DNA of 64,000 nucleotides from an uncultured Lachnospiraceae bacterium (GTDB lineage Bacteria > Bacillota > Clostridia > Lachnospirales > Lachnospiraceae), in the NCBI GenBank assembly GCA_902781655.1, contig CACZJZ010000003.1:62001-126000 (forward strand). The letters run 5' to 3'. A model generated the notes under the pieces. It made no database searches, was not told the DNA's origin, and saw only the letters and a list, made by a program, of their open reading frames with translations. A program made the position numbers and the translations under genes. Shown in pieces: positions 1,046 to 49,587 of the stretch (the first letter of the stretch is position 1; each line of letters starts with the position of its first letter).

Positions 1046-1246
1046 GATTTCCAGAACATCGCGATGTCCGGGATCCGCAGTGGTTCAGGACAGACCGGGA
1101 AACAGGATAGTACGTTGACAGAGCCGGAGCAGGCAGAATGGGAGGTGCCGCTTTCCGGGGCAGGGGAGCGTTGCGCTCCGCGTGTCCGGGATAGAGGCAG
1201 CCTTATTCCTGTCTGCCCACGGGTTCCATGCAGACAAGGAGATTAT

Positions 1247-3175
1247 GTGAGCAGAGCAGAACAGAAGGAGACAATGGATAACAAAGAACAGAAGGAAGCA
1301 AGAAACAGACAGGAACAGAATGAATCTGTGGCCAGGAGAGGAAGAAAGGAATCCGGACATGGCAGCAGAACAGGTTCAAAAGCACAGAATCAAAGCCGGG
1401 GCGACAAGTCATCCAGACCGTCCGGAGATGCCCGGGCGCTGAAGGAGAGCCGGGTGCAGAAGGCGGTGCGTCAGCTCCGGGAACGGCGGGAACAGCCGGA
1501 AAAGAGCAGCGGGAAGGAGACACCGGGCGGAAAGCTGCGGATCATTCCGCTCGGCGGGCTGGAAGAGATCGGCATGAACATCACCGCGTTCGAATATGAG
1601 GACAGTATCGTGGTGGTGGATTGCGGCATGGCCTTCCCTTCCGAGGATATGTACGGCGTAGACTGCGTGATCCCGGACACCACCTATTTGCAGAACAATC
1701 TCGACAAGGTCAGGGGATTTGTGATCACCCATGGGCACGAGGATCATATTGGCGCGCTGCCGTATGTACTGCGGGATGTCAATGTCCCGATCTATGCAAC
1801 CCGCCTCACGATGGGCATCATCGAGGGCAAGCTGACCGAGCACGGGATGATGAATACCACGGAGAGACATGTGGTAAAATTCGGGCAGACCGTCACACTG
1901 GGCGCATTCCGGGTTGAGTTCATCAAGACCAATCACAGTATTGTGGATGCCGCGGCGCTGGCGATCACATCTCCGGTGGGCACGGTGATTCATACCGGTG
2001 ATTTCAAGGTCGATTTCACACCCGTCTATGGGGATGCCATCGACCTGCAGCGGTTCGCCGAGCTCGGCAGGAAGGGCGTGCTCGCGCTGCTGTGCGATTC
2101 GACCAACGCGGAACGGCCCGGATACACGCCGTCAGAGAAGACAGTCGGCAAGACGTTCGATATGCTTTTCTCAGAGCACCGCGACTCGAGGCTGCTGATC
2201 GCAACCTTCGCGTCCAATGTGGACCGTGTGCAGCAGATTATCAATTCGGCCTACAAGTTCGGCCGCAAGGTGGTGGTCGAGGGACGCAGCATGGTCAATA
2301 TCATTTCGATCGCGCAGCAGCTCGGATGCATCACTATCCCGGCAAACACGCTGATCGATATTGACGAGCTGAAAAATTATCCGGAAGAGAAGACGGTCAT
2401 TGTCACCACCGGCAGCCAGGGCGAGAGCATGGCGGCTCTTTCTCGCATCGCCGAGGGTACACACCGCAAGATCAAGGTGGGGCCCGGGGATACGGTCATC
2501 TTTTCCTCGAACCCGATACCGGGCAACGAGAAGGCGGTCACCAATACCATCAATCTGCTGCTGATGAAGGGCGCGAATGTCATTTCCTCCGATGTGCACG
2601 CCTCCGGACACCCCTGCCAGGAGGAAATAAAGCTGATCTATACCCTGGTGCAGCCAAAATTCTGCGTTCCGGTGCACGGCGAGTACAAGCACCTGAAGGC
2701 GCATGAGAGGATCTGTAAGGAACTCGGGTATGATGACAAGCATATCTTCCTGCTGCAGTCGGGCGATGTGCTGGAGTTTACGAAGAATTCCGCAAAGGTA
2801 ACCGGGCGCGTCCAGGTTGGAGAAATCATGGTCGACGGGCTTGGTGTGGGCGATGTCGGCAATGTTGTTCTGCGGGACCGGCAGCATCTGGCCGAGGACG
2901 GCGTGGTATTTGTCACCTTCGTGCTGGATCAGTACATGGGCGATCTTGTGTCTGGTCCTGAGATCGCCTCGCGCGGATTTGTCTATCTCAAAGAGGCGGA
3001 TGATATGATGGTGGAGGCGCAGACGGTTGCACGCGACGCCATCGAAACGAACCTGGCGAGAGGAATCTCTGACTGGAGCAAGCTCAAGTCTGCCGTGCGT
3101 GACGACCTGGGCGATTATTTCTGGAAGAAGACCAAGCGGCGCCCGATGATCATCGCCATGATCATGGAGGCGTGA
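1247..3175 (+). CDS. rnj: Ribonuclease J
   Basis: This is a metallo-beta-lactamase/beta-CASP nuclease with 5'-3' exo- and endoribonuclease activity in mRNA decay and RNA maturation. The metal-binding HGHEDH is at about residues 162-167. The fold continues through IHTGDFKVD, LLCDSTNAERPG and the beta-CASP part (GSQGESMAALSRIA, then SSNPIPGNEKAV and DVHASGHPCQEE), ending in a C-terminal domain. GTG 1247 follows AAGGAG at 1236-1241; ATG 1274, also preceded by AAGGAG, is the alternative. Either start leaves a basic, Gln/Lys/Arg-rich extension of roughly 85-95 residues before LRIIPLGGLEEIG, where ordinary RNase J begins. It is probably disordered and could be an RNA or protein contact region (inference). 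Confidence 0.95.
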   Translation: MSRAEQKETMDNKEQKEARNRQEQNESVARRGRKESGHGSRTGSKAQNQSRGDKSSRPSGDARALKESRVQKAVRQLRERREQPEKSSGKETPGGKLRIIPLGGLEEIGMNITAFEYEDSIVVVDCGMAFPSEDMYGVDCVIPDTTYLQNNLDKVRGFVITHGHEDHIGALPYVLRDVNVPIYATRLTMGIIEGKLTEHGMMNTTERHVVKFGQTVTLGAFRVEFIKTNHSIVDAAALAITSPVGTVIHTGDFKVDFTPVYGDAIDLQRFAELGRKGVLALLCDSTNAERPGYTPSEKTVGKTFDMLFSEHRDSRLLIATFASNVDRVQQIINSAYKFGRKVVVEGRSMVNIISIAQQLGCITIPANTLIDIDELKNYPEEKTVIVTTGSQGESMAALSRIAEGTHRKIKVGPGDTVIFSSNPIPGNEKAVTNTINLLLMKGANVISSDVHASGHPCQEEIKLIYTLVQPKFCVPVHGEYKHLKAHERICKELGYDDKHIFLLQSGDVLEFTKNSAKVTGRVQVGEIMVDGLGVGDVGNVVLRDRQHLAEDGVVFVTFVLDQYMGDLVSGPEIASRGFVYLKEADDMMVEAQTVARDAIETNLARGISDWSKLKSAVRDDLGDYFWKKTKRRPMIIAMIMEA

Positions 3176-12383: not shown

Positions 12384-12414
12384 CAGAATTGTCAGGGACA
12401 AAATGAGGGCGATC

Positions 12415-14027: not shown

Positions 14028-15571
14028 ATCGGGTAAAACAGGGTTTTCTGGCGTTCTCAGCACTGTTTTTCAGCCTGACTGCAGTGGCAGGAGCGGGCAT
14101 GCCGGTGCGCGCAGAGGAAACTGCGCCTGCAGCGCGGGATACCATGGCTGCAGGAACCGGAAAGACGGTCACACTCCGGGTCTGCAACTGGGAAGAGTAT
14201 ATTGATGAGGGAGACTGGGACCAGGAGGAAGCCATCGATCTGCCGGATGGCACGGTTTTCGGAGAAAATTCCCTGGTGCAGGATTTTGAGGACTGGTATG
14301 CGGAGACCTATGGCGTGAAGGTGAAGGTGCAGTATTCCACCTTCGGTACGAATGAGGATCTCTACAACATGCTGACGCTGGGGGACACGTATGATCTGGT
14401 GTGCCCGTCGGACTATATGATCATGAAGCTGATGAGCGAGGACCAGCTGGTGCCGCTCTCCGATCACTTCTTTGATCCGTCTGACGCGAACAATTTCTAC
14501 ATCCGCGGCGTGTCGCCCTACATTCAGAATGTCTTTGATTCCACCCGGATCGGAGACGAGCCGTGGTCAAAATATTCGGCGGGATATATGTGGGGCGTCA
14601 CGGGTTTTGTCTATAATCCGAATGTGCTGACGGAGGAGCAGGCTGCCACGTGGACGCTGGCGGACGACCCGGCCTACCGCCGGCAGATCACCATCAAGGA
14701 CAACGTGCGCGACAGCTATTTCATGGCGGTCGGCGCACTGAAGGGGGAGGAGCTGACGGCGCCGTCCCTGGTGAAGGATCCGGCGTATCATCAGAAGCTG
14801 GAGGATGCCATGAACGACACTTCTCCGGAGATGATCGCGAAGGTGCAGGACTATCTGCAGCAGGTGAAGGATAATGTTTACTCCTTTGAGACGGATTCCG
14901 GGAAGGCGGACATGATCACGGGCAAGGTCGTGGCTAATTACCAGTGGTCCGGCGATGCGGTCTACACGATGGACCAGGCCGACGAGGACGGATACATGCT
15001 GAATTTTGCCGTTCCGAGAGAAAGCACTAACATTTATTTTGATGGATGGTGTATGCTGAAGAACGGGATCGCGGGAGACCGGGCGAAGCAGCAGGCGGCG
15101 GAGGCATTTATCAACTTCCTGTCGCGGCCGGACAACGCCATCCGCAATATGTATTACATCGGGTACACATCGGTGATCTCAGGCGGCAGCGACCCGCGGA
15201 TTTTCGAATATCTTGACTGGAACTACGGGGCGGACGAGGGGGAGAGCGGCACGGTGCCGTACGACCTCGGCTACTTTTTCACCGGGGATACGGAGAAAGC
15301 GGATCCGGAACACACACTGACGGTTTCGGAGGAGCAGCTTCACCGCCAGCTCGCCGCCCAGTATCCGGGCACGGATGTCATCCGGCGCTCCAGTATCATG
15401 CGATATTTCACGCCGGAAGAGAACGCTGCGATCAACCAGATGTGGGTCAACGTCCGCTGCTATAACATCCGCAGAGTACCTGTATGGGGATGGCTGCTGA
15501 TGGGAGCGGCAATGGCCGGTATCGTCACGCTCTCTGTATACCAGAACCGTAGAAAACACATGGCGGGATGA
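14024..15571 (+). CDS. potD: Spermidine/putrescine-binding protein PotD with C-terminal membrane anchor
   Basis: This is the extracellular substrate-binding protein (515 aa) of the polyamine importer. A signal peptide (about residues 1-30, ending near VRAEE) lacks a lipobox cysteine. The mature part begins VTLRVCNWEEYID, a PotD-like start, and has YDLVCPSDYMIMKLM, WGVTGFVYNP and ANYQWSGDAVYTMDQA, which are typical of the family. The last 33 residues contain a hydrophobic helix (VWGWLLMGAAMAGIVTLSV) followed by basic QNRRKH, which suggests C-terminal membrane anchoring in place of lipidation. It is about 150 residues longer than E. coli PotD. The start overlaps the potC stop. Confidence 0.93.
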   Translation: MNRVKQGFLAFSALFFSLTAVAGAGMPVRAEETAPAARDTMAAGTGKTVTLRVCNWEEYIDEGDWDQEEAIDLPDGTVFGENSLVQDFEDWYAETYGVKVKVQYSTFGTNEDLYNMLTLGDTYDLVCPSDYMIMKLMSEDQLVPLSDHFFDPSDANNFYIRGVSPYIQNVFDSTRIGDEPWSKYSAGYMWGVTGFVYNPNVLTEEQAATWTLADDPAYRRQITIKDNVRDSYFMAVGALKGEELTAPSLVKDPAYHQKLEDAMNDTSPEMIAKVQDYLQQVKDNVYSFETDSGKADMITGKVVANYQWSGDAVYTMDQADEDGYMLNFAVPRESTNIYFDGWCMLKNGIAGDRAKQQAAEAFINFLSRPDNAIRNMYYIGYTSVISGGSDPRIFEYLDWNYGADEGESGTVPYDLGYFFTGDTEKADPEHTLTVSEEQLHRQLAAQYPGTDVIRRSSIMRYFTPEENAAINQMWVNVRCYNIRRVPVWGWLLMGAAMAGIVTLSVYQNRRKHMAG

Positions 15572-15572
15572 A

Positions 15573-15643
15573 ATTGTCCCTGACGAGTTTAGCTTGTTTG
15601 GGACAAAAATTGTCCCAAACAAGCTAAACTCGTCAGGGACAAT
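15573..15643. repeat. Long palindromic intergenic repeat, copy 1
   Basis: Two perfect 34-base inverted arms (15573-15606 and 15610-15643) are separated by AAA. Each arm starts ATTGTCCCTGAC, contains AGTTTAGC and ends GGGACAA, so an arm is itself bounded by a 7-base inverted repeat (TTGTCCC/GGGACAA). The element begins two bases after the potD stop and ends before the Shine-Dalgarno of the next gene. There is no T-run after the hairpin, so it is not a standard terminator. Related copies are at 19340, 29767 and 49555. Confidence 0.95.
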
Positions 15644-15666
15644 CTGGAACAGACAGGAGGAATATG

Positions 15667-16407
15667 ATGAGCAAACCGTTGATTTGGGCGCACCGGGGCG
15701 CAAGTGGATATTGCCCGGAGAATACGCTGCCGGCGTTTGCGATGGCGGCTTATATGAAGGCGGACGGGGTGGAACTGGATGTGCAGCTGACCCGGGACGG
15801 GGAGATTGTGGTCTGTCACGATGAAAAAATCGACCGCACGAGTAACGGCGCGGGGTATGTGAAGGATTTCACGCTGGAGGAGCTGAAGCAGTTTGACTTC
15901 TGCAACGGAAATCTGGCCTATGAGGGAACGCAGATTCCGACGATGCGGGAGGTGTTCGCGCAGCTGGAACCCACGAATCTGACGATCAACATTGAGCTGA
16001 AGACGGGGGAGATTTTCTATGAAAATCTGGAACAGATGATCGTGGATCTCACCCATGAGTGCGGCTTTGAGAAGCGGGTGATCTATTCCTCGTTCAACCA
16101 TTATTCCATCCGGAAGATTCAGCAGATCGACCCGGAGGCGCAGACGGCGTTTCTGTATGCGGACGGCGCGCTGGATATGCCCGCGTACGGCAAGAAAAAC
16201 GGCGTGATGGCGCTCCATCCGGCGTTCTGCAATCTGCAGTATCCGCATTTCATGGAGGAGTGCAGGGAGAACGGACTCGATGTGAATGTCTGGACGGTAA
16301 ACAGCAGAGCGGAGCTGGAGGCGTGCGCAAAATATGGCGTGCACGCGGTGATCACGAATTATCCGGACAAGGCCCGGGAAGTGTGCTGCGGTCAGAAAGA
16401 GGCTTGA
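15667..16407 (+). CDS. Glycerophosphodiester phosphodiesterase
   Basis: This 246-aa GDPD-family TIM barrel hydrolyses glycerophosphodiesters to glycerol-3-phosphate and an alcohol. Catalytic motif 1 WAHRGASGYCPENTLPAF (the HRG and the E of PEN) and motif 2 ELDVQLTRDGEIVVCHDEKIDRT supply the metal ligands and the second His. INIELKTG and the C-terminal VNVWTVN also fit. No signal peptide is seen, so it acts in the cytoplasm. ATG 15667 has AGGAGG six bases upstream; ATG 15664 is too close. It stands alone between repeat copy 1 and a minus-strand gene. Confidence 0.93.
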   Translation: MSKPLIWAHRGASGYCPENTLPAFAMAAYMKADGVELDVQLTRDGEIVVCHDEKIDRTSNGAGYVKDFTLEELKQFDFCNGNLAYEGTQIPTMREVFAQLEPTNLTINIELKTGEIFYENLEQMIVDLTHECGFEKRVIYSSFNHYSIRKIQQIDPEAQTAFLYADGALDMPAYGKKNGVMALHPAFCNLQYPHFMEECRENGLDVNVWTVNSRAELEACAKYGVHAVITNYPDKAREVCCGQKEA

Positions 16408-19308: not shown

Positions 19309-19339
19309 AGATTTTGCACATTCCTTTTGACACCGGGAA

Positions 19340-19410
19340 ATTGTCCCTGACCAGTTTAGCATGTACGGGACAAAAATTGTCCCGTACATGCTAAACTGGT
19401 CAGGGACAAT
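19340..19410. repeat. Long palindromic intergenic repeat, copy 2
   Basis: Perfect 34-base arms (19340-19373 and 19377-19410) flank AAA. Compared with copy 1, four positions per arm differ, and each change is matched in the opposite arm so the palindrome stays perfect. The element lies between the divergent acyltransferase and AlaX genes. Three bases separate it from AGGAG, the AlaX ribosome binding site. Confidence 0.95.
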
Positions 19411-19426
19411 TCAGGAGCAGATGAGT

Positions 19427-26062: not shown

Positions 26063-26965
26063 ATGAAAATCAGTTCATTTTTCTATTCCATCGGACAGGG
26101 ATTTCGAAATCTGCACCGCAACAAGCTGTTCACTCTGGCTTCGATTGCGACCATTTCGGCATGTCTTTTTCTGTTCGGCCTGTTTTATGCCATCCTGACG
26201 GATGCACAGCATGCGGTCCGCAGCGCGGAACAGGGGGTTTCCGTCACGGTGTTTTTCAATGAGGGGACCACGGAGGACCAGATCCAGCAGCTGAAGGTCG
26301 CCATTGAGGAGCGTCCGGAGGTGGCCAGCGTCACCTATGTCTCGGCGGAGGAGGCCTGGAATTCCTTCAAGCAGGAGTATCTCGGCGAGTATTCCGACGG
26401 CTTCACGGAAAATCCGCTGGAAAATTCGGAGAATCTGGAGATTTATCTGAATGATGTCTCCCAGCAGAATTCGCTGGTGAGTTATCTGGAGGGACTGGAT
26501 CAGGTCCGGATGGTCAACCGGTCTGAGCTGACCGCCACGACACTGACGGGATTCAACAGCCTGATTGCGTATATTTATATCGGCATCATTGTACTTCTGC
26601 TGGGTGTTTCCATCTTCCTGATCAGCAACACGGTCACCATCGGCATCAAGTTCCGGGAAGAGGAGATCAATATCATGAAGTACGTCGGAGCGACGGATTT
26701 CTTCATCCGGGCGCCCTTCGTCATCGAGGGTATGATCATCGGCTTCGCGGGCGCCGTGATTCCGCTGGTCCTGATTTATTACTTCTACGGCAAGGCGGTG
26801 GACTTCTTCGAGGGCAGATTTTCCATGCTGACCTCTCTGCTGAGTTTCCTGCCGGTCGTCGCCATCATGAAAACACTGATTCCGATCAGTCTGCTTCTCG
26901 GCATCGGCATCGGCTTTTTCGGGAGTCTGCTGACCGTCCGCAGGCAGCTGCGCGACAAGACGTGA
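26063..26965 (+). CDS. ftsX: Cell division protein FtsX
   Basis: The membrane partner of FtsE is 300 aa. It has a cytoplasmic start (SFFYSIGQGFRNLHRNKLFTLASIA), four membrane helices, and a large extracellular loop between helices 1 and 2 (about residues 50-165) that contacts the hydrolase. FREEEINIMKYVGATDFFIRAPFVIEG is the typical FtsX motif. GAGGT precedes ATG 26063. The gene after it encodes a coiled-coil M23 protein of the PcsB/EnvC type, the expected extracellular partner. Confidence 0.95.
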   Translation: MKISSFFYSIGQGFRNLHRNKLFTLASIATISACLFLFGLFYAILTDAQHAVRSAEQGVSVTVFFNEGTTEDQIQQLKVAIEERPEVASVTYVSAEEAWNSFKQEYLGEYSDGFTENPLENSENLEIYLNDVSQQNSLVSYLEGLDQVRMVNRSELTATTLTGFNSLIAYIYIGIIVLLLGVSIFLISNTVTIGIKFREEEINIMKYVGATDFFIRAPFVIEGMIIGFAGAVIPLVLIYYFYGKAVDFFEGRFSMLTSLLSFLPVVAIMKTLIPISLLLGIGIGFFGSLLTVRRQLRDKT

Positions 26966-27146
26966 GGAGTTTGAAACAGCGGATTTCCTGCCGGTCTCTT
27001 CGCATGCCCTCTGGAGCGGCGCGGCAGAGAAGCGATGGGTTCCAGAGAGGCGTCGGCTTCCAGAGAGGCCGTGATGAACGGGACATGATTCCGGGATAAG
27101 ATTCCCTGTATGCGCCGGGGCAGTGACGCCGGCAGGATGTATTTTG

Positions 27147-28382
27147 ATGAATCGAAGCAATCACAATCGAGGGCGGTTTCGTGCCCGGGCGATCGCGGCG
27201 GCAGCGGCCATTGCGGCAGCGGCCGCCATTTGGGCTGCACCGGCGGCGGTGCCTGTACAGGCAGCCGTGACGGAGGAATCCATCAAGGCGAAGGAGGACC
27301 AGATTTCGTCCGCAAAATCGGAACGGGAGAGTCTTCAGAGTTCTCTGAGCGATATCCAGTCCATCAAAAAGAGCCTGGAGGCGTCCAAGAGCGATCTGGA
27401 GACGTATGTCACGCAGCTTGACACCAACCTGACGGCCATTCAGACAAAGGTGGATCAGCTGAAGCAGGAGATCACGGATAAGGAATCGGAGATCGACAGG
27501 ACGGAGAAGGAGCTGGAGGAAGCGGAGCAGGTGCAGCAGGCGCAGTACGAGGCCATGAAGAAGCGGATTCAGTTCATGTATGAGCGGGGAAACACATACA
27601 TGCTGGAGGTGCTGCTGCAGGCCGGCAGTTTCAGCGAGATGCTGAACAGGGCGCAGTATATCGATGAGGTCTCCGCCTACGACCGGAAAAAGCTGGAGGA
27701 GTATAAGCAGCAGACTCGGCTGGTGGAGGCGACCCGGCAGGCGTTAAAGGAAGAGAAGGAAACGCTCGAGGCAGCGAAGAAGACGCAGGAAGAAGAGGAG
27801 GCCGGCATTCAGAGCCTGATTCAGGCGAAGGCGGCCCAGATCAGTTCTCTGGAGGGGCAGATCTCAGACCAGGAGTCGGAGATGGAGGAGACGCAGGCGG
27901 CGATCGATCAGTCCACCTCGGAGATTGCGGCGCTGGAGTCACAGGTCGCGGCGGACAAGGCTGCTCTGGCGGCACAGCAGAAGGCCTACAGCGGCGGGGT
28001 ATTCACCTGGCCGTGCCCGGGCTATACCTATATTTCCTCGGAGTTCGGGTACCGGGTGCATCCGATTTACGGGACGCGGAAATTCCACAGCGGACTTGAC
28101 ATGGCGGCGCCGTATGGTGCTCCGATTCTGGCGGCTGCGGATGGCACGGTGGTGTCCGCGGGCTACAGCGCCTCCATGGGAAATTATGTGATGATCAACC
28201 ATGGCGGCGGGCTGTTCACGATTTATATGCACGCCTCTTCCCTGGCTGTGTCGGCAGGACAGAGCGTTTCCGCCGGCCAACAGATCGCCTCGGTCGGAAG
28301 CACCGGAAATTCCACCGGCCCGCATCTGCATTTCAGTGTGCGGCTGAACGGGGAGTATGTGAATCCGAGAAATTATCTGTGA
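27147..28382 (+). CDS. Coiled-coil M23 murein hydrolase (PcsB/EnvC-like)
   Basis: The 411-aa product has a signal peptide (about residues 1-40, Ala-rich, ending near VQAAVT), a long coiled coil (about 45-275, Glu/Gln/Lys-rich) and a C-terminal M23 LytM domain. Zinc ligands appear in FGYRVHPIYGTRKFHSGLDMA (H and D) and in PHLHFSV (HxH). The architecture matches FtsEX-controlled hydrolases, and ftsEX lies directly upstream, so a role in septal peptidoglycan cleavage is likely. Both zinc motifs are intact, so the domain may be an active endopeptidase. ATG 27147 is chosen over GTG 27123 because it opens with a proper signal peptide. Confidence 0.92.
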   Translation: MNRSNHNRGRFRARAIAAAAAIAAAAAIWAAPAAVPVQAAVTEESIKAKEDQISSAKSERESLQSSLSDIQSIKKSLEASKSDLETYVTQLDTNLTAIQTKVDQLKQEITDKESEIDRTEKELEEAEQVQQAQYEAMKKRIQFMYERGNTYMLEVLLQAGSFSEMLNRAQYIDEVSAYDRKKLEEYKQQTRLVEATRQALKEEKETLEAAKKTQEEEEAGIQSLIQAKAAQISSLEGQISDQESEMEETQAAIDQSTSEIAALESQVAADKAALAAQQKAYSGGVFTWPCPGYTYISSEFGYRVHPIYGTRKFHSGLDMAAPYGAPILAAADGTVVSAGYSASMGNYVMINHGGGLFTIYMHASSLAVSAGQSVSAGQQIASVGSTGNSTGPHLHFSVRLNGEYVNPRNYL

Positions 28383-29766: not shown

Positions 29767-29841
29767 ATTTTGTCCCTGACGAGTTTAGCTTGTTTGGGAC
29801 AATTTTTGTCCCAAACAAGCTAAACTCGTCAGGGACAAAAT
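29767..29841. repeat. Long palindromic intergenic repeat, copy 3
   Basis: Arms of 36 bases (29767-29802 and 29806-29841) flank TTT, where copies 1 and 2 have AAA, so this copy is in the opposite orientation. The inner 33 bases of each arm are identical to copy 1. The element ends one base before the uvrB ATG at 29843. The only Shine-Dalgarno-like sequence for uvrB, AGGGA at 29831-29835, lies inside the right arm and would be paired if the RNA hairpin forms. Confidence 0.95.
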
Positions 29842-29842
29842 T

Positions 29843-31837
29843 ATGGATCATTTTGAATTGGTATCTTCATATCAGCCGACGGGGGATCAGCCGGAGGCGA
29901 TTCAGAAGCTTGTGGAGGGGTTCCGGGCAGGGAATCAGTTTGAGACGCTGCTTGGGGTCACCGGGTCGGGCAAGACGTTCACGATGGCGAATGTGATCGC
30001 GGCGATGAACAAGCCAACGCTGGTGATTTCGCACAATAAGACGCTGGCAGCTCAGCTGTATAGTGAGTTTCGGGAGTTTTTTCCGCACAATGCGGTGGAG
30101 TATTTCGTCTCCTATTACGATTATTATCAGCCGGAGGCGTATGTGCCGCAGAGTGACACGTATATTGCCAAGGATTCTTCGGTGAATGATGAGATCGACC
30201 GGATGCGGCTGTCGGCGACGGCGGCGCTGACGGAGCGGCGGGATGTGATTGTGGTGGCGTCTGTGTCGTGTATTTATGGTCTGGGTTCGCCGGATGATTA
30301 TGAGAAGATGTCTATTTCGCTCAGGCCGGGGATGGAGAAGAGTCCGCAGGAGGTCTGCGACGCGCTGACGCAAATCCATTATGATCGGAGTGACGATCTG
30401 CAGCGGGGGTGTTTCCGGCTGCACGGGGATGTGCTGGAGGTGAATCCGGCGGAGGGGTCGGATTATGTGCTGCGCATCGAGTTTTTCGGGGATGAGGTAG
30501 ACCGGATCACGCAGGTCGAACCGGTGACGGGAAGGCCGCACGCGGAGCTTCGGCACGTCGACATTTTTCCGGCCTCGCATTATGTGGTGCCGAAGGAGAA
30601 GATCGACAGGGCATGCGATGAGATCGAGGCGGAGCTGAAGGAGCGGGTGCGGTATTTCAAGAGCGAGGGAAAGCTTCTTGAGGCGCAGCGCATCGCGGAA
30701 CGGACGAATTTTGACATCGAGATGATGCGGGAGACGGGGTTCTGCAGCGGAATTGAGAATTATTCGCGTCCGCTGTCAGGCCGGGCGCCGGGGTCGGCGC
30801 CGATGTGTCTCATGGATTTCTTCCGCGGCGATTATATGATCATGGTGGATGAGTCGCACATCACGATTCCGCAGATCGGCGCGATGTACCACGGCGACCA
30901 GAGCCGGAAGAAGACGCTGGTGGACTATGGGTTCCGCCTGCCGTCCGCGATGGATAACCGGCCGCTGTCGTTCGAGGAGTTTGAGCAGCGCATCGATCAG
31001 ATGCTGTTTGTCTCCGCGACGCCGGGGCAGTATGAGGCGGAGCACGAGCTGCTCCGGGCGGAGCAGATTATCCGTCCGACCGGTCTTCTGGATCCGGAGA
31101 TCACGGTGCGTCCGACCGCCGGGCAGATCGACGATCTCATTTCGGAGATTCATAAGGAAACGGAGAAGAAGAACAAAATTCTTGTCACCACGCTGACGAA
31201 GAAGATGGCGGAGGATCTGACGGAATATCTGGCTGAGACGGGCATCCGGGTCAAGTATCTCCACTCCGATATCGACACACTGGAGCGGGCGCAGATCATC
31301 CGCGATATGCGGCTTGATGTCTTTGATGTGCTGGTCGGCATCAATCTTCTCCGGGAGGGACTGGATATTCCGGAGATCTCGCTGGTGGCGATTCTGGATG
31401 CGGACAAGGAGGGCTTTCTCCGGAACGAGACCTCTCTCATTCAGACGATCGGCCGCGCTTCCCGCAACGCGGAGGGACATGTCATTATGTACGCGGATAC
31501 GGTCACGGAGTCGATGCACCGCGCCATCGAGGAGACAGCGCGGCGCCGCCGGATTCAGACGCGCTACAATGAAGAGCATCACATCACGCCGCAGACAATC
31601 AGGAAGGCGGTTCGCGATCTGATCACGGTGTCTCAGGAGATCACGAAGGAAAATGCGGCCTTTGAGAAGGATCCGGAATCGATGAGCGCGGAGGAACTGA
31701 AGAAACTCATCGGCAAGACGGAGAAACAGATGCGGCGGGCGGCCACGGATCTCAATTTTGAGGCGGCGGCGGAGCTGCGCGATCAGCTCGTCGAGCTGAA
31801 AAAGCACTACAATATCGTGACCGGCGGGAAGGGTTGA
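29843..31837 (+). CDS. uvrB: Excinuclease ABC subunit B
   Basis: UvrB (664 aa) is the DNA-damage-verifying helicase-like subunit of nucleotide excision repair. Walker [11 protein letters not shown] is near residues 34-43. [12 protein letters not shown] is the beta-hairpin that inserts between DNA strands. [11 protein letters not shown] is the Walker B region, VSATPGQYE motif III, and [14 protein letters not shown] motif VI. The C-terminal UVR domain ([19 protein letters not shown]) contacts UvrC. Length is normal. It abuts palindrome copy 3 and precedes uvrA; no uvrC is visible in the window. Confidence 0.97.
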
Positions 31838-45197: not shown

Positions 45198-45210
45198 GAG
45201 AACGATCCGA

Positions 45211-45255
45211 CAGAAAAAGGGGCTGATCCGTTGACCGGGTCAGCCCCTTTTTCTG
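45211..45255 (+). terminator. Strong terminator/hairpin between the HPr-like gene and leuA
   Basis: A perfect 16-base stem (45211-45226 with 45240-45255; core GGGGCTGA/TCAGCCCC) has A-run and T-run flanks. It lies 13 bases after the HPr stop and only 37 bases before the leuA start, with no evident promoter in between. Confidence 0.9.
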
Positions 45256-45292
45256 CCGGAAATCAGTTTCTGCTGAAAAGAGAGGAGTCAGA

Positions 45293-49523: not shown

Positions 49524-49558
49524 ACAAAAAGGACAGGCGCGAGGCCTGTCCTTTTTGT
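49524..49558. terminator. Bidirectional terminator after the radical SAM gene
   Basis: ACAAAAAGGACAGG (49524-49537) pairs perfectly with CCTGTCCTTTTTGT (49545-49558). A- and T-runs on the two sides serve both the radical SAM gene and the convergent degV gene. Confidence 0.9.
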
Positions 49559-49587
49559 CTCTGAGAAGTTTAGCTTGTTCGGGACAA
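49555..49587. repeat. Degenerate single arm of the long palindromic repeat
   Basis: These 33 bases match the copy 1 arm at 29 positions, including AGTTTAGCTTGTT and the GGGACAA end. There is no second arm. It begins in the T-run of the terminator and lies just after the degV stop on the opposite strand. Confidence 0.75.

Follow-up and report, generated by a model that had tools for sequence, protein, structure and literature searches.

The palindrome at positions 15573-15643 is one copy of a family of inverted repeats dispersed through the genome of an uncultured Lachnospiraceae bacterium. With a probability of about 0.6, we take this family to be a REPIN-like, non-autonomous mobile palindrome that is now eroding and whose RAYT is undetected in either of the two genomes compared here, that of the window and RUG554. 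The window is the whole stretch of 64,000 nucleotides that was analysed (C3:62001-126000 of genome G000, which comprises 2.76 Mb in 53 contigs). All copies in it are built from a 33-bp repeat unit, TTGTCCCTRACRAGTTTAGCTTGTTYGGGACAA, as follows.

15573..15643, strand (.): inverted pair, the element under study; units 15574-15606 (+) and 15610-15642 (-), centre AAA
19339..19411, strand (.): second inverted pair; units 19341-19373 and 19377-19409, centre AAA
29767..29841, strand (.): third inverted pair; units 29770-29802 and 29806-29838, centre TTT
49555..49587, strand (+): single unit with 2 mismatches to the R/Y consensus
12384..12401, strand (.): unit scar, TTGTC fused to AGGGACAA; the RUG554 locus L152 has a whole single unit there

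A direct search for inverted repeats agrees with the original prediction of a perfect palindrome at 15573-15643, with 34-nt arms (15573-15606 and 15610-15643) around the centre AAA, and the symmetry of the flanks extends one base on each side of the pair. The element starts 2 bp past the stop codon of a gene for a solute-binding protein (SBP_bac_8, PotD-like), and ends 21 bp ahead of the start of a phosphodiesterase gene (GDPD), which bears out the predicted location between potD and a phosphodiesterase gene. The other two pairs are also perfect palindromes. That at 19339-19411 has 35-nt arms and sits between divergent predicted genes, and that at 29767-29841 has 36-nt arms and lies between a Peptidase_S41 gene and uvrB, the next start codon being at 29843. 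The single unit at 49555-49587 stands immediately behind a terminator-like inverted repeat (49524-49558). Allowing at most 2 mismatches, TTGTCCCTGAC occurs 39 times against 14.3 expected, the maximum over 100 shuffles being 23. The longest other perfect inverted repeat in the window has 20-nt arms (loops of up to 12 allowed). Two further inverted repeats, at 193-237 (perfect 20-nt arms) and 45206-45260 (25-nt arms, 92% complementary), are unrelated to the family and of terminator-like size.

Across the whole genome, one spelling of the pattern gave 96 units at up to 3 mismatches and two other spellings gave 100, and a reversed-pattern control over the same genome gave 0 matches. The predicted dispersed family is therefore real, although 'at least four in 64 kb' understated about 100 units per genome, and no feature marks the 15573-15643 copy as ancestral, as the word 'founder' had implied. 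The fetched stretches of G000 contain 64 recognised elements, namely 36 inverted pairs, 26 singles, and 2 triples. A few of the counted pairs contain a partner with 7 or 8 mismatches, and decayed copies are under-counted because elements were sought only around units with at most 3 mismatches. All 36 pairs have their units in '+-' order, so that the GGGACAA ends face each other, and the opposite order has 0 examples. Of the 60 pairs from G000 and the RUG554 set with at most 6 mismatches in each arm, 27 have the centre AAA, 26 have TTT, and 7 have another sequence there, and AAA or TTT stands on the 3' side of 14 of 44 singles.

Each unit alone forms an imperfect hairpin. Its stem positions are paired in 78-100% of 99 G000 units, except positions 8/26, a fixed mismatch that is paired in only 7% of them. 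The G-T pairs in the stem allow one strand to fold better than the other (-17.6 vs -10.8 kcal/mol for the window unit), whereas the pair folds as a single 34-bp stem at -60.8 kcal/mol, so that either one long hairpin or two small ones can form, as had been proposed. The loop AGTTTAGC and the unit ends are near-invariant. The base adjoining a pair is A or T in 71/72 flanks, an excess that is gone by the fourth base, and apart from this A/T excess in the first bases the flanks show nothing resembling a GTAG/CGTC tag, which is also absent from the consensus at the unit ends. Mismatches to the consensus average 0.88 in singles (n=26 units) vs 1.43 in pairs (n=72 units).

Only 3/62 genomes of the genus carry units, namely G000 (100), RUG554 (G006; 101), and SUG1538 (G004; 4, all on the single contig C14). 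A scan of named genomes, which may omit records of the window's own genome, returned 41 stretches, of which 38 came from RUG554, itself an uncultured Lachnospiraceae, and one each from RUG100, SUG1538, and the Bacteroidales bin UBA7258. The SUG1538 and UBA7258 contigs match contig C7 of G000 at 91-96%, yet SUG1538 matches the window locus at only 70%; for this reason, the unit-bearing contigs (G004:C14 and one of about 114 kb in UBA7258; loci L131 and L145) may reflect misbinning or a transferred replicon. Around C7:9793 in G000, no orthologue was found in G004 or G006, the matches being other copies of the unit only. The search of the genus turned up no relative with an identity between about 75 and 92%. 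Among 396 other genomes of the family Lachnospiraceae, one (G335) matched the 7-bp ends and their spacing with an unrelated interior, and there were no units in 24 genomes from other families of the order and no match in the viral contigs (exact pattern), plasmids, and phages searched.

The copies lie between genes and mostly right behind them. According to a purpose-made codon-usage caller trained on 34 long window ORFs, whose gene predictions are approximate, 62/64 elements fall between predicted genes and the other 2 run into the end of one. The gaps are co-directional in 43 cases, convergent in 11, and divergent in 8. Within the co-directional gaps, 27/43 elements begin no more than 15 bp past the upstream stop codon, where 14.1 would be expected, and random placement in the same gaps put at most 22 there in 2000 draws. 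Singles have no preferred orientation towards co-directional genes (8 same, 9 opposite). Ten neighbouring proteins were tested and are ordinary ones (SBP_bac_8, GDPD, HGSNAT_cat, an alanyl-tRNA-synthetase-related protein, Peptidase_S41, UvrB, radical SAM, MatE, FmdA_AmdA, and type I phosphodiesterase), and there is no transposase among them, in line with the original prediction. An intrinsic terminator, which that prediction had already dismissed, is a poor description of the family: four T's directly follow the stem in only 9/72 pair flanks and are missing at 15573-15643. A search of Rfam with window 15400-15800 gave 16 matches, all below the gathering score and nearly all to eukaryotic microRNA models.

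How the copies have changed can be read from the comparison of G000 with RUG554, which are 92.5% identical on average (range 66-99.9%, 67 aligned pieces >250 bp). Both flanks are colinear in RUG554 stretches for 28/64 G000 elements, and RUG554 has a unit at 27/28, a share that is biased upward since most of its stretches had been chosen because they contain a unit. At nine loci (L018, L023, L025, L086-0, L095-0, L100-1, L103-0, L108-0, and L108-1) a pair in one genome corresponds to a single in the other. The length difference is exactly 36 bp, the size of a unit plus the centre, at 6/9 of these loci, and 29 to 35 bp at the other three. TTGTCCC and GGGACAA each occur twice per pair as direct repeats 36 bp apart, and slippage between them can therefore explain the 36-bp differences. 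Elements that have vanished leave traces such as TTGTCCC (L011/L151), GGGACAA (L083/L140), or the TTGTC-AGGGACAA fusion already listed for the window.

Empty sites were sought with ten RUG554 copies that had no counterpart among the G000 loci fetched, their joined flanks serving as queries against G000. Nine of these queries matched; in seven the match covered both flanks, and in two (L150-1 and L151-0) only the left one. Five sites (L144-1, L141, L136, L135, and L150-1) keep a recognisable remnant in G000, while four (L129, L147, L151-0, and L162) have no element but show other changes in the flanks. As none of the nine is a clean pre-insertion site and only losses and scars are seen, we infer that most of the spread took place before the two genomes split and that loss has prevailed since. 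The original prediction had looked to target duplications as a check, and the flanks were compared accordingly. No copy has a convincing one, and the longest words shared between flanks match expectation. A flank-repeat excess at a 15-bp register reached a best z of 5.3 among 396 settings when the orthologues of both genomes were counted; it drops to 2.7 and 2.2 per genome and is carried by no copy, so it was rejected as a target duplication.

The two arms of a pair resemble each other far more than they resemble the arms of other pairs. Within G000 pairs (32, of which 18 are perfect) the arms differ at 0.56 of 33 positions, vs 3.25 between pairs, and the values for the RUG554 set (28 pairs, including the loci of three other bins) are 0.57 and 2.57; in both sets, 0/5000 permutations were as low. 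Thirteen pair-to-pair comparisons between orthologues contain 14 changes mirrored in both arms and 18 unmirrored ones, with 9/18 of the latter contributed by L022 alone, whose G000 copy is degenerate. Under a null of independent changes weighted by the variable positions of the family (eight comparisons with changes, L022 excluded), 5.6 mirrored changes are expected against the 14 observed, a value reached in 0/20,000 draws. In 3/13 comparisons, among them those of the first two palindromes of the window, the centre has flipped, AAA in one genome standing against TTT in the other. In its RUG554 orthologue, the 15573-15643 element has the same 2 positions changed in both arms and the centre TTT, and the 19339-19411 element has 5 positions changed, all of them mirrored, and again the centre TTT, while the arms of the 29767-29841 element show no differences.

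In yeast, homogenisation of the arms and inversion of the spacer have been reported for template switching between inverted repeats (PMC8604942), and the same combination is seen here. The arms are probably homogenised by template switching during replication. Conversion by another copy is a possible alternative source of mirrored changes, above all at 19339-19411, where five changes and the flip came together. A separate observation concerns unit position 26, part of the mismatch, which is C in 44/99 G000 units vs 11/79 in the RUG554 set; where it differs between orthologues in mirrored fashion (window 19339, L001, and L038), both arms have C in G000 and T in RUG554, a directional change.

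Most genomes of the genus have transposases of the Y1 type (Y1_Tnp, PF01797, in 43/61), but the sole match in G000 is a 56-aa C-terminal piece of the IS200 type, cut by a contig end (C31:36330-36452, L031), and there is none in G004 or G006, in the latter (93% complete) even at E values up to 10. The C31 piece has a different hairpin downstream, and no unit lies within its 1626-bp locus, the C31 units being at 26149-27201; we therefore rejected the idea that the units are solo ends of an IS200/IS605 element. P0001 from G036, a RAYT-like protein that occurs in the genus, scores 76.6 bits with the NCBIfam model for the REP-associated tyrosine transposase, just below the cut-off of 80. Nothing in G000, G006, or G004 matches it significantly, and the best E values, 0.13 (G006) and 0.165 (G000), are at chance level and do not indicate a RAYT remnant. 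The G036 gene (L081:1031-2129 on G036:C32; gene 1108-1869, minus strand) is flanked on both sides by the hairpin AACGACCYCNGRGGTCGTT, which, at up to 1 mismatch, is found 103 times in G036 and as many as 26 times in other species, in 16/62 genus genomes in all, and is absent from G000 and G006. This hairpin is dispersed like our family, but its sequence is unrelated, its stem is shorter, and its RAYT gene is present. Since RAYT/REP-like systems of different sequence exist in the genus, we infer that the present family looks like such a system that has lost its enzyme. Loss of RAYTs is mentioned for many E. coli strains (PMC3733652).

The family has much in common with REPINs as described by Bertels and Rainey in 2011 (PMC3116915), including inverted doublets of short imperfect palindromes, an extragenic location, about 100 copies, singles beside doublets, and the choice between one long hairpin and two small ones. 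REPs are also reported to lie mostly downstream of genes (PMC3116915, PMC3733652). In contrast to REPINs, the family has no RAYT in its genome and has arms that are identical over their full length. The REPIN spacer is described as diverse (PMC8049555), whereas the 3-nt centre here is constant, and Pseudomonas REP singlets are described as less conserved (PMC3116915), whereas the singles here are not decayed. GTAG/CGTC-tagged REPs are similar in being stem-loops of 20-40 bp with G-T pairs and stem mismatches, in lying mostly downstream of coding regions, and in forming head-to-head dimers (PMC3733652); our family is untagged, and the main text of that paper lists other phyla with Firmicutes unmentioned. 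The E. coli REP recognised by TnpA-REP likewise has a conserved stem mismatch and a strand-specific hairpin, but needs for its activity a GTAG tag (PMC8266576), of which this family has none. Because both the RAYT and the tag are lacking, the family is not filed as a REPIN. Also counting against the REPIN-like reading are the lack of a clean empty site, the 18 unmirrored changes, the possible origin of mirrored ones in conversion, the weak 15-bp register excess in the flanks, and singles that are not more decayed than pairs. Among the literature matches listed, which leave subscription papers mostly outside, none deals with REPINs or RAYTs in Firmicutes or with palindromic repeats of Lachnospiraceae.

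In the REPIN-like reading, the propagating entity would most likely be the 69-bp inverted pair, consisting of a unit, AAA or TTT, and an inverted unit, which would have multiplied before G000 and RUG554 split. That the pair propagates and the singles derive from it is suggested by the centres, which are AAA or TTT in 53/60 pairs, while these triplets follow only 14/44 singles. Repeated fold-back copying of singles is disfavoured, as the centres would then resemble the flanks of singles, and the undecayed state of the singles suits recent slippage. The mover, which neither genome shows any longer, was probably a transposase that acts in trans on single strands and belongs to the HUH/Y1 (RAYT-like) class, and the copies of the pair would have come to rest mostly just behind stop codons. 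The missing target duplications fit movement of the IS200/IS605 type, elements that according to PMC2817692 produce no larger ones. After the split, the copies would have stayed at their sites and been passed on there. During replication, template switching from one arm to the other would restore the identity of the arms and could flip the centre, slippage between the direct repeats would turn a pair into a single, and larger deletions would leave scars. A different conception, which we consider quite unlikely, is a mobile fold-back element free of both RAYT and parent transposon. It would replicate as the hairpin itself, stay letter-perfect through template switching at replication, and be placed behind stop codons by a class of enzyme so far unconnected with such repeats.

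MITEs of cut-and-paste (DDE) transposons, of which the Correia elements are an example, usually have target duplications and match the ends of a parent transposon. In the main rival to the REPIN-like reading, the units are terminal inverted repeats of this kind, and a transposase with matching ends moves them in trans; we judge this fairly unlikely. The inverted ends, the small size, and the many intergenic copies would suit it, as would the weak register excess in the flanks and one ambiguous locus, L147, where the RUG554 element stands between the near-repeats CCGGCATT and CCGCATT and G000 has one copy of the repeat and no element. Nevertheless, no flank holds a convincing target duplication, the ten neighbours include no transposase, and a DDE enzyme would have no need of the fixed mismatch and the strand asymmetry. 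Position behind stop codons, in operon-like gene pairs, and the very stable RNA stem could instead point to a host RNA element, kept because its hairpins stabilise, cut, or attenuate operon mRNAs. We hold this to be very unlikely for a family that is confined to one species cluster, with one of its three genomes carrying it on a single contig, that is freely lost or halved, whose singles are unoriented with respect to genes, and that has no Rfam match above the gathering score.

A candidate binding site for a chromosomal or regulatory protein would account for the near-invariant loop and ends, but the family is species-restricted and lies mostly behind genes and not at promoters, with 8/62 elements between divergent genes, and we regard this as most improbable. 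Of the three identities first proposed, the non-autonomous mobile palindrome fits best, then, while the protein-binding site and the mRNA-processing element are without positive evidence. We give hardly any weight to an artefact of assembly at contig joins. Among the many contigs of RUG554, an environmental assembly, one (G006:C59, 5231 bases) does end one base beyond a pair, but the same elements with the same flanks are found inside contigs of two separate assemblies. The refuting outcome foreseen in the original prediction, that copies are missing elsewhere or arise at contig joins, is contradicted by units at the same places in RUG554. An assembler would not easily create losses of exactly 36 bp; the orientation of the centre and the last mismatches between arms are the only features open to assembly error.

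If the REPIN-like reading is true, REPIN-like repeats would extend to the Lachnospiraceae, where they would have identical arms around a constant 3-nt centre and lack a resident RAYT. RUG554 would then serve as a natural experiment, with the homogenisation of arms, the flipping of centres, and slippage readable locus by locus, which makes the persistence of perfect palindromes in bacterial chromosomes testable. Two other observations come from the comparison of the genomes. Beside the orthologue of 19339-19411, RUG554 contains about 2.5 kb that is extra relative to G000 (L165:1461-3473, contig G006:C123), encoding a 670-aa protein that matches the Schlafen group 3 helicase family. Elsewhere, 4.9 kb of L085 and L124 are 99.9% identical between G000 and RUG554, though most aligned pieces are near 92%, which may reflect a recent exchange or a shared contig.
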